Source of the DNA: Candidatus Aquidulcis sp.
GTDB lineage: Bacteria; Chloroflexota; Anaerolineae; UBA4142
Reading direction: 5' to 3'
Length of the DNA: 57,458 bases
Assembly: GCA_020723345.1 (NCBI GenBank)
Contig: DYJA01000039.1
Span: 1-57,458, forward strand
In this document: piece by piece, positions 7,831 to 47,542 of the stretch
Layout: the number at the start of each line of letters is the position of its first letter
Position numbering within the stretch: the stretch's first letter is position 1
Notes under the pieces: model-generated
Seen by the model: the letters and a program-made list of their open reading frames with translations, nothing else
The model's database searches: none
Told to the model about the DNA's origin: nothing
Program-made: the position numbers and the translations under genes

Positions 7831-8304
7831 ATGGGAAATGATTCACCGAATCAGCCAATTGAAATACAACCCGAGCCACTCACCGCGCTCGACCGCTTTT
7901 GGCTCGACACCGCGCGTAACGCCGCGAAAGAATCGGTCGGCGCGCTGGAGGAGGCGGCAAAGCAATTGATCGCGATCACCAGTTTGTCGCAAGGCATTTA
8001 CTTTGCCGCGATCTCGTTCGGCGACGTGAAAAAAGCGTTGCCGCAATTCGCGCCCGCGTGGCAGTGGACGATCACAGGCGCGCTGGTTTTGCCGCTGGTG
8101 TGCTGGCTCGTCGCGCTCTTCTTTGCGATTCGCGTTTTCACGCCGCAAGTCTACGCCACGAATCTCGATTCGCCTGATCTCGCGCGCGAGACGTACGAGC
8201 AAGTCGTCGCGTACAAACACGCGCAGTTGCGCCGCGCGCACATCGCGCTGGTGATCGGCTTTGTGCTGCTTATCGTCAACATCATCGCGTTCTGGCGGCT
8301 GTAG
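7831..8304 (+). CDS. Hypothetical protein with two transmembrane helices
   Basis: A 157-residue protein. The N-terminal ~60 residues are soluble and amphipathic (DRFWLDTARNAAKESVGALE). Two clear TM helices follow, near residues 72-100 (TGALVLPLVCWLVALFFAI) and 135-156 (IALVIGFVLLIVNIIAFWRL). GAGGTGG precedes the ATG. I do not recognise the family. The layout (cytosolic helix plus a 2-TM hairpin) resembles small effector or anchor proteins near STAND genes, but that is inference. Its TAG stop lies inside the following palindrome. Confidence 0.6.
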   Translation: MGNDSPNQPIEIQPEPLTALDRFWLDTARNAAKESVGALEEAAKQLIAITSLSQGIYFAAISFGDVKKALPQFAPAWQWTITGALVLPLVCWLVALFFAIRVFTPQVYATNLDSPDLARETYEQVVAYKHAQLRRAHIALVIGFVLLIVNIIAFWRL

Positions 8305-8328
8305 GACAATTTTGCAAAATTGTCCTAC
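8301..8328 (+). repeat. GGACAA palindrome, copy 1, supplying a stop codon
   Basis: Perfect inverted repeat with arms GTAGGACAATTTTG and CAAAATTGTCCTAC. The TAG stop of the 2-TM gene is bases 2-4 of the palindrome, and the next gene's GAGGAG ribosome-binding site follows at once. Relatives lie at 22671, 29462, 31183, 47515 and 55558. Confidence 0.85.
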
Positions 8329-27594: not shown

Positions 27595-29478
27595 ATGAGG
27601 GAATTCCGCGGCAAGGTTGCCATCTTCATCGGTGTTGTTTACGTCGCGTTCGTTCTGTGGTCGCTTTACGGTGCGGTGATGCCCGTCGAAACGTACATGT
27701 TTCGGATGGTGCATCTGGGTTTCATCTACGCGCTCGCATTTTTAGTTTATCCTCTTTCGAAAAAACAAGACCGTTGGACGCGCTGGCTCGACCTCGCGTT
27801 TGCGATCCTGGGTGTCCTCGCGATTGCGTACGCGCTGATCGATCTCGACGCGTTCATTCGCCGCTCCACGCTCCCCGATCCGCCCGATCTGTTCTTCGGG
27901 CTTGCCGCGATTTTGCTGCTGATCGAACTTTCGCGCCGCGTGGTCGGCAACACGTTTACGATTGTTCTGATCGGATTTCTCCTCTATATTTTCTTCGGTC
28001 CACTTTTTCCCACTGAAATCGCGCACAAAGGATACGACATTGATCGCCTCGTCGGTCACATGTTCATGACGCTCGAAGGCATCTTCGGCGTGCCGTTGTC
28101 CGTGAGTGTTTCGTTCGTAATGTTGTTCGTCGTCTACGGCGTGCTGATGGACGCGGCAGGCGCGGGCGCGTTCTGGCTCGAACTGTCGCTCGCGTTGATG
28201 GGACGCGGTCCGGCGAGCGCGGGACGCGGCGCGGTGATGACAACCGCGCTGCTTGGCGGTCCGCAAGCGAGCGGCGTCGCGACGACGATGTCCGTCACGC
28301 CGATTATGTGGCCCATCTTGAAAAAAGCCGGATACACCGCCGATATGGCGGCGGGCTTGGTCGCGGCGGGCGGCATCGGCGCGGTGATTTCTCCGCCGAT
28401 GATGGGCGCGGCGGCATTCTTGATTATGCAATTTCTGCGCGTCTCGTTTTGGGATGTCGTCGTGATGGTCACGATGCCGACTCTGTTGTACTACGTCGGC
28501 ACGTTCTTCATGGTCGAGATGGAAGCGCGCAAGCACAAGTTTACGCCGCCCGATTCGACCGGCAAAACGTTTGCCGATGTGATGCGGACGCGCGGCTATC
28601 ACCTCATTTCGATTGCGGTGCTCGTCGCGCTGTTGGTGCTGGGACGTTCGCCGGAAGATGCCGCGCTCTGGGCGATTGCCGCGGTGATCGCGACGAGTTT
28701 CTTGAGCAAGGATCGCGGCGAGTGGCTCACACCCAAGCGCATCTGGGACGCGACAATCGAAGGCGCGAAGAATATGTTGCCGGTCGCGATTTTGCTCGCG
28801 GCTGCCGGATTGATCGTCGGCGTCTTTTCGCTGACCGGACTCGGACTGAAAATTTCAAACATCATCATGTCGCTCAGCGGCGGCTCGACGATTCTCGCGC
28901 TGCTCCTCGCGCTCCTCGCGTCGTTCATCATCGGGCTGTCGCTGCCGATCACCGCGACGTACATTATGACAGTCGTGATGGTCGCGCCCGCGCTCGTCAA
29001 AGTCGGCGTGCCGGAACATGTCGCGCATCTGCTCGCGTTCTATTTCGCGGTTCTGTCGGAGGTCTCGCCGCCGGTCGGCTTGTCGCCGTCGGCAGCCGCG
29101 GCGGTCACCGGCGGCAATCCGTTCGGCGCGATGATGCAGGCGTGGAAATATTCGTTGCCCGCGTTTCTTGTTCCCTTCTTTTTCGCCGCGACGACTGTTG
29201 GCGCGAATTTGCTGATCGTCGGCGCGAACTGGGGCGGGTTTATCGAAGCAACCGTCACGGCGACGCTCGCGCTCTTTTTCCTCGCGCTCGGCATCATCGG
29301 ATTTTTCCGCAGCGCGCTGAACTGGGTCGAACGCGCGATCCTGATCGTGATCGCGTGTATGATGGTTTTGGATCCGATTGACTTGTCGTTGATGGGTTTA
29401 CTGCCGGTTGCCATCGCGCTGATTGTAGTCGCGCGCAATTATTTTGTGAATCAACCACAGCGTAGGACAAATTTGTAA
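27595..29478 (+). CDS. TRAP transporter fused permease (DctQM type, TAXI system)
   Basis: A 627-residue polytopic membrane protein combining the small (4-TM) and large (12-TM) TRAP subunits, as is usual for TAXI-type systems. Visible DctM features are FVMLFVVYGVLMDAAGAGAF, GGPQASGVATTMSVTPIMWP, AGGIGAVISPPMMGAAAFL, SLPITATYIMTVVMVAP and EVSPPVGLSPSAAAAVTGGN. TRAP systems import organic acids or amino acids using ion gradients and a binding protein. AGGAGGAGGG precedes the ATG. The last residues (QRRTNL) and the TAA lie in the following palindrome. Confidence 0.93.
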   Translation: MREFRGKVAIFIGVVYVAFVLWSLYGAVMPVETYMFRMVHLGFIYALAFLVYPLSKKQDRWTRWLDLAFAILGVLAIAYALIDLDAFIRRSTLPDPPDLFFGLAAILLLIELSRRVVGNTFTIVLIGFLLYIFFGPLFPTEIAHKGYDIDRLVGHMFMTLEGIFGVPLSVSVSFVMLFVVYGVLMDAAGAGAFWLELSLALMGRGPASAGRGAVMTTALLGGPQASGVATTMSVTPIMWPILKKAGYTADMAAGLVAAGGIGAVISPPMMGAAAFLIMQFLRVSFWDVVVMVTMPTLLYYVGTFFMVEMEARKHKFTPPDSTGKTFADVMRTRGYHLISIAVLVALLVLGRSPEDAALWAIAAVIATSFLSKDRGEWLTPKRIWDATIEGAKNMLPVAILLAAAGLIVGVFSLTGLGLKISNIIMSLSGGSTILALLLALLASFIIGLSLPITATYIMTVVMVAPALVKVGVPEHVAHLLAFYFAVLSEVSPPVGLSPSAAAAVTGGNPFGAMMQAWKYSLPAFLVPFFFAATTVGANLLIVGANWGGFIEATVTATLALFFLALGIIGFFRSALNWVERAILIVIACMMVLDPIDLSLMGLLPVAIALIVVARNYFVNQPQRRTNL

Positions 29479-29489
29479 ATTTGTCCAAC
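29462..29489 (+). repeat. GGACAA palindrome, copy 3, ending the TRAP permease frame
   Basis: Arms GTAGGACAAATTT and AAATTTGTCCAAC around GT. The permease frame enters the palindrome and stops at the TAA 29476-29478 in its centre. The ribosome-binding site of the next gene follows. Confidence 0.85.
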
Positions 29490-29513
29490 AAAATTTTTTC
29501 AGGAGGAGAAAAA

Positions 29514-30623
29514 ATGAAAGTCAGAACGATTATTTTCGCGATCGCGCTGATCGCGATGGTGGCGGCGTGCGCGCCCGCGCCGACGCCCGCGCCCACTGCC
29601 GCGCCGCCGACCAAAGCGCCAGTCGTCGAGCCGACGAAAGCGCCGGTCGCGACGACCGCGCCCGCGCAACCGACGGCGGTGCCGCCAACCGCCGCGCCCA
29701 AGCCGACTGATCCGCCCAAACCGATGGCGTTCAGTCTGGTGACCGGCGGCACCGGCGGTGTGTGGTATCCGCTCGGCGGCGCGATTTCCGGCGTCGTCGG
29801 CAAGAACGTGCCCGGCGTGTCGATCACCGTCGAAGCAACAACGGCGGCGACGGACAATTTGAAATTGCTCACCGCCAACAAAGCCGGGATGGCGTTCGCG
29901 TACGATTATCACGCGGGCTGGGTGAACGATGGCAAGATGCCTGGTCTCACCGGCAAGTTCAACGCGCGCATCGTGATGGCGTTCTACGAACAGCCGTTGC
30001 ACGTCGTCACGAAGGATGGCACCGGGATCAAGACGCTGGAAGATCTCAAGGGCAAACGCGTTTCCACCGGCGCGCCGAACAGCGGCACGGAAGAGCAAGC
30101 CGGTTACGTGCTCAAAGGTCTCGGCATTGACATTGACAAGGACATCAAGCGCGAGAAACTAGGCGCGGCGGAATGTGTCGCCGGGCTCAAGGATGGCAAA
30201 CTCGACGCGTTCTTCTGGAGCGGCGCGGTGCCCACCGCCTCGATCATCGATTTGGCGAACACGCCCGGCTTGAAGATGGTCTTGCTCCCGATCAGCGGCG
30301 AACTCGGCGACAAGATCATGAAGGCGAATCCCGGCGTCTTCCACGCAACCGCATTCAAGAAAGATTCGTACAAAGGCGTGGATGCGGACGTGCCGACAAT
30401 CGGCATTACCGCGGTGATCCACGTGTTGGACACGTTCTCCGAAGAACGGGTCTATCAAATCGTGAGTGCGCTCTTTGCGAATATGAACGATCTCGCAGTC
30501 GTCGCGAAAGAAGTCAAGGACTTGACCCCAGCGAAATCAATGGCGCAGTTGGGTCCCGACGCGCAAAAGTTGTTGCATCCCGGCGCAGTCAAGTTCTTCA
30601 AGGAAAAAGGCGCGTTGAAGTAG
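29514..30623 (+). CDS. TAXI-family TRAP substrate-binding lipoprotein
   Basis: A 369-residue binding protein of the TAXI TRAP family. The signal peptide ends in a lipobox (LIAMVAAC), followed by a long Pro/Thr/Ala linker (PTPAPTAAPPTKAPV). The TAXI core begins SLVTGGTGGVWYPLGGAISG and continues TTAATDNLKLLTANKAGMAF and RVSTGAPNSGTEEQAG. It delivers substrate to the fused permease encoded upstream. Known TAXI substrates include glutamate and 2-oxoglutarate, but the ligand here cannot be read. ATG 29514 is set by AGGAGG. Confidence 0.92.
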   Translation: MKVRTIIFAIALIAMVAACAPAPTPAPTAAPPTKAPVVEPTKAPVATTAPAQPTAVPPTAAPKPTDPPKPMAFSLVTGGTGGVWYPLGGAISGVVGKNVPGVSITVEATTAATDNLKLLTANKAGMAFAYDYHAGWVNDGKMPGLTGKFNARIVMAFYEQPLHVVTKDGTGIKTLEDLKGKRVSTGAPNSGTEEQAGYVLKGLGIDIDKDIKREKLGAAECVAGLKDGKLDAFFWSGAVPTASIIDLANTPGLKMVLLPISGELGDKIMKANPGVFHATAFKKDSYKGVDADVPTIGITAVIHVLDTFSEERVYQIVSALFANMNDLAVVAKEVKDLTPAKSMAQLGPDAQKLLHPGAVKFFKEKGALK

Positions 30624-30639
30624 AAATGACGGGCGACCG

Positions 30640-31230
30640 ATGACCGAAGACGGGAATCTGTCAGTACGTTCGACCTTGCGCGGGTTTGCAGACCCGCGCA
30701 AGGTTTTGTTTGGCGCGCTTTGTCTCGCGCTCGCGCTGTGTCTCGCGTCGCAACTCCCCGCGTCGGGATTCACGCGTTTGGAGTTGACCGATGCCGCGAC
30801 CGGGCGCAACATCGTTTCCGCGATTTTGCGCGACGGCGCGCCGATCACGTTGACGTGGCGCAATTCGCTCTTCAATCTCGACGTGACCGAAGCGTTCGTC
30901 GCGGAAAACGGCGCGCTGATCCAAACCGAAGTTACTTTTGCCGATCCGCGCGGTCTGCCGCCACCGATTGTCGCGCCAAGCGACGTAGACGATCTGTACC
31001 ACACCGGCGGCGCGTTCTCCGCCAAGGGAATGCGGCGACCGTTCACGCGGATCGCGTACCGCGTCGGCGAAATCGGCAATCCGAAAATGACGATTGGCGC
31101 GCGCGTGATCGAGTTCAAACGCAAAGTCGGATTCGGCGGCAGCATCATCTTGACGACGCGCGCGGTTAGTAGGGGCGAAGCCGTTGGACAAATTTGCAAA
31201 TTTGTCCTACCCAATGAGGAGGAAAAATGA
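30640..31230 (+). CDS. DUF1850 protein of the TRAP operon
   Basis: A 196-residue protein with one N-terminal membrane segment (VLFGALCLALALCLASQLP) and the DUF1850 core: ITLTWRNSLFNLDVTEAFVAENG and a later RVGEIGNPKMTIG. DUF1850 genes sit beside TAXI TRAP genes in many genomes; the function is unknown. Both ends of the frame are repeat DNA. The N-terminal STLRGFADPRKV comes from a CCTTGCGCGGGT palindrome (30673-30704), and the C-terminal VGQICKFVLP from a GGACAA palindrome. No clear ribosome-binding site is seen for ATG 30640, and a later start is possible. Confidence 0.75.
   Translation: MTEDGNLSVRSTLRGFADPRKVLFGALCLALALCLASQLPASGFTRLELTDAATGRNIVSAILRDGAPITLTWRNSLFNLDVTEAFVAENGALIQTEVTFADPRGLPPPIVAPSDVDDLYHTGGAFSAKGMRRPFTRIAYRVGEIGNPKMTIGARVIEFKRKVGFGGSIILTTRAVSRGEAVGQICKFVLPNEEEK
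31183..31210 (+). repeat. GGACAA palindrome, copy 4, coding for the DUF1850 C-terminus
   Basis: Arms GTTGGACAAATTTG and CAAATTTGTCCTAC, perfect except at the outer A/T positions. The DUF1850 frame reads through it as GQICKFVL before ending in the ribosome-binding site of the next gene. Confidence 0.85.
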
Positions 31231-31661
31231 GTAACGTAGATTACGCGGTCGATCTTTTCAGGCAGGGCTTTGCCTGATCGCAATCCATTCTTGCCGCGTG
31301 CGGCAAGCAGTTCGGAATGGACGAGCAGACGGCGTTTCGCGTCGCGTGCGGATTGGGCGGCGGATGCGGTCGTTTGGGTCTGACCTGCGGCGCGGTGACC
31401 GGGGCGTTCTTGGTCATCGGGCTAAAGTACGGGAAAATGAAAGCGGACGACAACGACGCGAAAGAAAAAACGTACGCGTTCGTCCAAGAATTTTCGGAAC
31501 AATTCCTCGAACGCAACAAATCGCTGAATTGCACCGAGTTGTTGGGGTGCGATCTGGGAACGCCGGAAGGACGCGTCAAAGTGAAGGAGCAGAATCTCCT
31601 GACCACCGTTTGCGAAAAAGTCGTCAGAGACGCGGCGGAGATTTTGGAAGAGGTGTTGTAA
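31227..31661 (+). CDS. C_GCAxxG_C_C redox protein, probable selenoprotein (UGA at codon 17)
   Basis: Translated through an in-frame TGA at 31275-31277, this gives a 144-residue protein of the C_GCAxxG_C_C family of small putative redox proteins, often found beside transporters. It starts MSNVDYAVDLFRQGFA-TGA-SQSILAACGKQFGMDEQTAF. The TGA stands where the family has its first conserved Cys (GFxC[AS]Q). The remaining conserved elements are LTCGAVTGAF, LNCTELLGCDL and TTVCEKVV. The true ATG has a strong GAGGAGG site and overlaps the DUF1850 stop. A conventional call would start at 31317 and lose the first 30 residues. Selenocysteine is the best reading; a Cys-to-stop mutation is the alternative. 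Confidence 0.82.
31285..31320 (+). promoter_or_regulatory. Candidate bacterial SECIS element
   Basis: A stem-loop just after the TGA. The outer stem is CCATTC (31285-31290)/GAATGG (31315-31320), and the inner stem TTGCCG/CGGCAA has apical loop CGTG (31297-31300). An 8-nt bulge lies on the 3' side. Nineteen bases separate the TGA from the loop, and G is the second loop base, as described for bacterial SECIS. Confidence 0.65.
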
Positions 31662-31691
31662 TGTAATGTGCTGGAGGTTCACTTGGGCGTA

Positions 31692-32083
31692 CTATTTGGA
31701 CAGGACATCCACTAGTTCAATTTCCGTAATGAACGTATAGTGCTTGCGGTTGCGTGTGACCAGAGGTATATGTTTGACCCACGCGGTCGCGGCAATCAAC
31801 GCATCGTCCACGCGCAAGGGATGCCTTGTGTACTTTTGCAGTAACTCGGAAGCGGCGGCGGCAATCGTCGAATCTACATGAATGATCCGCACGAGCCGCA
31901 ATAGGCGCAGTATCTTGCGGCGCTCCCCGCCCGTTAACCGCGCTTGGATAGCAATTCTTTACGCGATACGTTTGAGCAATACAATCGCCGATTCGATTCC
32001 CAGATCAGCGTTTTTGCCCATGCTTGTCCTTCGAGCCAATCAATCAGAATGTCTGTATCTAACAGAAAATTCAATCGGTCCAC
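31692..32083 (-). pseudogene. VapC-type PIN-domain toxin with a frameshift
   Basis: Reading from GTG 32083 gives DRLNFLLDTDILIDWLEGQ (first PIN Asp pair) to RLYCSNVSRKELLSKRG, then a TAA. After a one-base shift near 31936-31941 the frame resumes LTGGERRKILRLLRLVRIIHVD and runs to the second acidic site, RVDDALIAATAWVKHIPLVTRN, and a stop at 31692. Both halves are well conserved, so this is one PIN RNase gene broken by a single-base indel, or a sequencing error. It overlaps the preceding HTH gene by 13 bp, typical of a toxin-antitoxin pair. Confidence 0.78.
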
Positions 32084-32403
32084 GCGCCCAACTCCGCAAC
32101 GGTTTCTTTGAGCGTTTTCCTGTTACGCTTTCGGATTCGATTGACGCGGGTTACGCTGTCGAGCGCATTGCGATGTGATTTCCATAAACCGAACCCCAAG
32201 TCTTCCGGAGCGAAATGGGTCTTGAGTGGCTGGGTGAAAAATGCGTCAACCACGGACTTGGGCACACGGTAATGTTGCCCCAGGCGGATCGCCGGCAAGT
32301 TGCCCTCGCGGATTAAGGCGCGCACGGCGCGCGGCGTCAATTTGAAAATACGTGCGACTTCGTTGATGCTGTAAACCGAATCATAGACTGACTGAGTAGC
32401 CAT
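32071..32403 (-). CDS. Excisionase-type helix-turn-helix protein (antitoxin of VapC)
   Basis: A 110-residue protein with a MerR/excisionase-like HTH: YSINEVARIFKLTPRAVRAL, IREGNLPAIRLGQHYRVPKS. The C-terminal extension is basic (RVNRIRKRNRKTLKETVAEL). ATG 32403 has a GGAG site, and a TTG six bases upstream is less likely. The stop overlaps the start of the vapC-like gene. HTH-excisionase/PIN pairs are a known toxin-antitoxin arrangement; here the antitoxin is intact while the toxin carries a frameshift. Confidence 0.75.
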   Translation of the reverse strand: MATQSVYDSVYSINEVARIFKLTPRAVRALIREGNLPAIRLGQHYRVPKSVVDAFFTQPLKTHFAPEDLGFGLWKSHRNALDSVTRVNRIRKRNRKTLKETVAELGAWTD

Positions 32404-32423
32404 GAGCAAACTCCTCTGTGTAC

Positions 32424-46999: not shown

Positions 47000-47518
47000 A
47001 TGGAACTGCAGGGCAAGCGCGTCGCGATTCTCGCGGAAAACAATTATCAAGAATTGGAACTGTGGTATCCGCTCTTGCGTTTGCGCGAAGCCGGAGCCAA
47101 AGTTACGGTCGTGGGGATGCCGGGCGCGCAAGAGTACCAGAGCAAGCACGGCTACCCGGTGAAACCGGATGTCGCCGCCGATGCCGTCGCGGCAAACGAT
47201 TTCGACGCGGTGATCGTGCCGGGCGGTTTTGCGCCGGACGCGATGCGTCGCCACAAACCGATGCTCGATCTGGTGCGCGGCGTGAACGAGCGCGGCGGCA
47301 TCGTTGCGGCGATTTGCCACGCGGCGTGGGTGCCGATCTCGGCGGGCATTATGAAAGGCAAGCGCGCGACGTGCGTTCCGGCGATCAAGGACGACTTGAT
47401 CAACGCGGGCGCAATGTACGTGGACGAAGAAGTGGTGCGCGACGGCAACCTGATCACATCACGCGTGCCGAGCGATCTACCGGCGTTCTGTCGCGCGATC
47501 ATCGCCGCGCTCGAGTAG
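47000..47518 (+). CDS. PfpI/DJ-1-family protein
   Basis: A 172-residue protein of the PfpI/YhbO group: VAILAENNYQELELWYPLLR with the conserved Glu, FDAVIVPGGFAPDAMRR, AAICHAAWVPISAG with the nucleophile Cys, and DDLINAGAMYVDEEVV. The family includes deglycase/stress proteins. ATG 47000 follows GGGGAGGG; the upstream frame is an mscL shadow. Its TAG stop is inside a GGACAA palindrome. It appears to share the mscL transcript (11-bp gap). Confidence 0.9.
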   Translation: MELQGKRVAILAENNYQELELWYPLLRLREAGAKVTVVGMPGAQEYQSKHGYPVKPDVAADAVAANDFDAVIVPGGFAPDAMRRHKPMLDLVRGVNERGGIVAAICHAAWVPISAGIMKGKRATCVPAIKDDLINAGAMYVDEEVVRDGNLITSRVPSDLPAFCRAIIAALE

Positions 47519-47542
47519 GACAAATTTGCAAATTTGTCCAAC
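47515..47542 (+). repeat. GGACAA palindrome, copy 5, supplying a stop codon
   Basis: Arms GTAGGACAAATTTG and CAAATTTGTCCAAC. The TAG of the PfpI gene (47516-47518) is part of the palindrome; GTGGAGA for the next gene follows directly. Confidence 0.85.

Follow-up and report, generated by a model that had tools for sequence, protein, structure and literature searches.

A C_GCAxxG_C_C family gene with an in-frame TGA at the first conserved cysteine very probably encodes a selenoprotein

The window analysed here (the whole stretch of 57,458 nucleotides, contig C55 of a 6.34 Mb draft genome that is 95.5% complete in 132 contigs) contains a gene that, on comparative sequence evidence, very probably encodes a selenoprotein of the C_GCAxxG_C_C family, with an in-frame TGA decoded as selenocysteine (Sec) at the first conserved Cys. 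The features of the locus are:

31216..31222, plus strand: ribosome-binding site GAGGAGG, 4 nt 5' of ATG 31227 (sequence)
31227..31661, plus strand: predicted selenoprotein gene, C_GCAxxG_C_C family, 144 aa with Sec as residue 17 (PF09719, TIGR01909; TGA read through)
31275..31277, plus strand: in-frame TGA, codon 17, putative Sec residue 17 (aligned with an invariant Cys in 30 homologues; TGA in relatives)
31290..31307, plus strand: candidate SECIS apical hairpin CUUGCCG-CGUG-CGGCAAG (bacterial SECIS model; paired in three Sec orthologues)
31386..31391, plus strand: codons of Cys54 and Gly55, opening the GCAxxG-type motif CGAVTG (invariant columns C54 and G55)
31530..31532, plus strand: codon of conserved Cys102 (invariant column)
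31611..31613, plus strand: codon of conserved Cys129 (invariant column)

The initial annotation had described a frame opening at ATG 31227 behind a GAGGAGG site, interrupted by one TGA and then open for 127 codons, and this was confirmed on the sequence: the TGA is the sole internal stop between 31227 and 31661, there is no frameshift, and the frame ends at the TAA at 31661. Assignment to the C_GCAxxG_C_C family also held, as profile searches with the 144-residue product scored above both curated cut-offs (PF09719, 113.9 bits against 27, E 5.9e-33; TIGR01909, 85.4 bits against 47.4, E 2.9e-24). All four conserved Cys positions of the family are present, at residues 17 (via the TGA), 54, 102 and 129, the second of them within CGAVTG. 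The standard ORF call begins, as had been anticipated, at ATG 31317 and gives 114 aa, dropping 30 residues that include residue 17. Routine gene calling would thus misannotate the gene, shortening it at the cost of its key residue.

The TGA falls on the first of four columns (17, 54, 102 and 129) that are invariant Cys in 30 aligned homologues when Sec is counted as Cys, in agreement with the position originally proposed. Among loci from the genome collection the codon at position 17 is TGT or TGC in 71 scored loci and TGA in seven others, which were assembled independently of the window: L023, a Chloroflexi MAG of the same genus (81% protein identity); L024, of the same family (59%); and the Nitrospirota loci L047, L050, L056, L065 and L085. 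The L023 sequence is shared by the same-genus relative L114 and the L024 locus is identical to L137 from a same-family genome; TGA at position 17 also occurs in more distant members of the class. Comparison of the window with L023 gave dN 0.081 and dS 0.26 upstream of the TGA, a segment of just 16 codons and hence weak evidence alone, and dN 0.115 and dS 0.85 downstream of it, values that point to purifying selection on both sides. Runs of unchanged codons between the two sequences include 13-19 and 22-27; this was set aside as evidence because comparable runs are found elsewhere. A tree of 77 rows places the window in one group with L023 and L024 (support 100/96), each of them a Sec form, and the Sec/Cys state changes twice across the tree; the Sec lineages may share one origin.

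Family searches of the genome located all four components of the Sec machinery whose presence had been put forward as a check: tRNA-Sec (selC; 76.3 bits, cut-off 47, with TCA in the anticodon region), SelA (594 bits), SelB (361 bits) and SelD (357 bits, with an in-frame TGA of its own). The same genome encodes two formate dehydrogenase alpha subunits above the family cut-off, with one in-frame TGA each, and two weaker formate dehydrogenase matches, also with one TGA each. TGA serves as an ordinary stop in 8 of the 18 window genes checked. The proposal that Sec replaces the redox Cys is thus supported by the machinery in the genome, the invariant Cys site and the recurrence of TGA in relatives. 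A second C_GCAxxG_C_C paralogue, L002, lies on another contig of the genome (G000:C95:27217-27519, minus strand) and has TGA at the same first Cys, in the context GT-U-SQT, followed at 21 nt by a SECIS-model hairpin (GGCGGUC-GUU-GACCGCU, -9.9 kcal/mol); by its sequence it is a probable second selenoprotein of the genome.

The hairpin 3' of the TGA was compared with the bacterial SECIS model, which specifies a loop of 3-9 nt with a G within its first two positions, a stem of 4-16 bp, a distance of 16-37 nt from the UGA and a minimum free energy of at most -7.5 kcal/mol (PMC13188914, a 2026 review). The window hairpin satisfies this model, with a 7 bp stem (31290-31296 paired with 31301-31307), the loop CGUG (31297-31300) 19 nt past the UGA, and -9.7 kcal/mol. 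The loop and its distance from the TGA were therefore as originally described; the upper stem proved one pair longer (CTTGCCG/CGGCAAG rather than TTGCCG/CGGCAA), and the lower stem CCATTC/GAATGG that had been drawn beneath it is not conserved in either of the nearest Sec orthologues. In the RNAfold analysis that had been suggested, the energy is not distinguished from dinucleotide shuffles (z -1.12), and that comparison was replaced by codon resampling and by comparison of Sec and Cys homologues. When synonymous codons were resampled with the protein kept, any match to the SECIS model arose in 1.0% of sequences and one as strong in 0.12%. SECIS-model matches occurred in 12/18 TGA homologues versus 8/99 Cys homologues (Fisher p 2e-7, a value inflated by relatedness, as the rows are not independent). 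All seven pairs of the apical stem are preserved across the window, L023 and L024, and a U-A to C-G substitution is the single compensatory change among them; three sequences are too few for a test of covariation. Although all seven of the nearest Sec relatives retain the TGA, five of them lack the register of the window hairpin, and L056, L065 and L085 have no match to the strict model. An Rfam search at the locus gave no match, which means little since bacterial SECIS elements are diverse.

Three other readings of the locus were weighed against decoding as Sec. The TGA is one base away from TGT and TGC and the sequence comes from a draft assembly, so that a genuine stop, in a pseudogene or through a sequencing or assembly error in a Cys codon, could be envisaged; however, the recurrence of the same TGA in the separate same-genus MAG, in L024 and in five Nitrospirota argues against both, as do a gene free of other stops and frameshifts with low dN/dS on either side of the TGA and a complete Sec machinery, and we regard this reading as very improbable. 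Initiation at ATG 31317, with the upstream segment a leader or unrelated, is what the standard ORF caller returns, but the segment ahead of it conforms to GFxU[SA]Q, the N-terminus of the family, and follows a strong ribosome-binding site, whereas ATG 31317 has no comparable Shine-Dalgarno before it and the shorter form would be without one invariant residue; this start is scarcely credible. The frame would equally be open under any sense reading of the TGA, including Trp or near-cognate suppression, yet residue 17 in relatives is Cys and never Trp, TGA is an ordinary stop elsewhere in the genome, and a SECIS-model hairpin follows the UGA, leaving insertion of another amino acid with a negligible likelihood. 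Decoding as Sec is by far the best explanation of these data.

In the mechanism that the genes and their conservation suggest, SelB-GTP with Sec-tRNA(Sec) would recognise the hairpin just 3' of the UGA and decode this codon as selenocysteine. The product would be a 144-residue, seemingly cytoplasmic helical domain, and the four invariant Cys/Sec positions suggest a redox role for a site formed by Sec17 with Cys54, Cys102 and Cys129. This site may be a redox centre of the selenol/thiol type; alternatively, like a homologous domain described below, it may bind an iron(-sulfur) centre.

As a well-supported addition to a family already known for selenoproteins, the gene is a new member but not new as a kind: NCBIfam names TIGR01909 a '(seleno)protein', one review recognises C-GCAxxG-C-C as a selenoprotein family with 'form 1' and 'form 2' (PMC13188914), and another lists it among selenoproteins (PMC9312934). 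With these (seleno)proteins it shares profile scores above the curated cut-offs, the four conserved Cys positions and Sec in place of Cys, but its Chloroflexota lineage is not named in the texts of PMC9312934 and PMC13188914, which have no match to 'Chloroflex'. There is also partial profile similarity to the HUGP/GUXX-star fusion selenoprotein (NF045501), although at 52 bits this is far under the cut-off of 325, and the 144-residue protein has no fusion domain. For a family without assigned function, the gene thereby supplies a clean pairing of Sec and Cys forms.

An AlphaFold2 model built from 30 sequences (mean pLDDT 96.6) is an almost wholly helical domain, and from this high-confidence model the fold is predicted to be that of split-Soret cytochrome c. 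The top Foldseek match was split-Soret cytochrome c (1h21) with a probability of 1.00, albeit at an E of only 0.058; VIA-align against 1h21 gave Z 13.3 with an rmsd of 3.6 over 130 residues (the next row scored 3.3), although helical bundles can reach a Z of about 13 by chance. Searches of PDB sequences did not reach significance with the single protein (1h21, E 0.35) or with the profile, and the proposed fold link therefore rests on structure comparison and the shared Pfam domain. Two split-Soret-like proteins encoded in the same genome lend independent support: both score above the PF09719 cut-off, and one of them matches 1h21 with an E of 4e-33. These are the split-Soret cytochrome c-like proteins L135 (G000:C6:10907), which has CXXCH motifs, and L136 (G000:C53:40510), which ends without them. 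The likeness to the Desulfovibrio desulfuricans protein (1h21, NF047622) thus comprises the predicted fold, the Pfam domain and four Cys that line up, in a multiple alignment, with the four Cys/Sec positions. By contrast, the present protein has no C-terminal extension and would have Sec at the first Cys, and the 144 residues contain no CXXCH haem motif, so that it is not a cytochrome. The 1h21 structure has been described as having 'a novel iron centre'.

The genes immediately upstream of the predicted selenoprotein gene are:

27595..31230, plus strand: TRAP-TAXI transporter genes and a DUF1850-like gene (TIGR02123, TIGR02122, DUF1850), comprising the following three
27595-29478, plus strand: fused TRAP permease (TIGR02123 and TIGR02122 cited for the TRAP-TAXI genes)
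29481-30623, plus strand: TAXI solute-binding protein (same families cited)
30640-31230, plus strand: DUF1850, a weak match of 22.4 bits, below the cut-off of 27; its stop overlaps ATG 31227

The same order of TRAP-TAXI, DUF1850-like and selenoprotein genes is found in the same-genus MAG L023. A habit of the family of sitting near transporters, which the initial annotation had invoked, received little backing: few transporters figure among the top 25 families listed from 53 upstream and 42 downstream neighbours of family genes, and the TRAP linkage was observed only within the genus, while other Sec relatives lie beside Mo/W genes. The L024 Sec gene is directly downstream of a formate dehydrogenase gene with its own in-frame TGA (L024:2205-4988), that of L047 follows an AFOR gene (L047:3223-4944), and MoaC follows the Sec gene in four loci (L050:5426-5938, L056:2387-2908, L065:5635-6114 and L085:4948-5493). 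By direct search of the flanks, formate dehydrogenase, AFOR or MoaC was present at 6/7 Sec loci versus 1/71 Cys loci, and in the lone Cys locus the AFOR gene lies at a distance of 3 kb on the opposite strand. As this count represents about three clades, a search restricted to these proteins and flanks of differing length, the apparent association of the Sec form with Mo/W genes is a lead and not a result.

The split-Soret fold and the Mo/W gene links provide two directly testable ideas on family function. Taken jointly, they allow the speculative and rather unlikely proposal that, within a split-Soret-type fold, an iron or iron-sulfur centre has the selenolate of Sec17 as a ligand and that the Sec form serves Mo/W enzymes, for example formate dehydrogenase and AFOR. 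If true, such a natural Sec-ligated iron centre would be unusual, and a selenoprotein family so far uncharacterised would acquire a function. Few iron-sulfur centres are known to have natural Sec ligands, and it is for this reason that the metal-ligand reading holds most of the remaining interest.

Two further observations were made in the window. The palindrome GGACAAATTTGCAAATTTGTCC occurs four times in perfect or near-perfect form (31186-31207, 47518-47539, 29465-29486 and 8304-8325) where none would be expected by chance; the copy at 31186-31207 is just 5' of the start of the predicted selenoprotein gene, and L023 has a similar palindrome at the corresponding position. On the minus strand, a gene for an HTH_17 protein (32071-32409) is followed by a frame at about 31680-32070 that appears PIN-toxin-like by eye, and the two are possibly a toxin-antitoxin pair.
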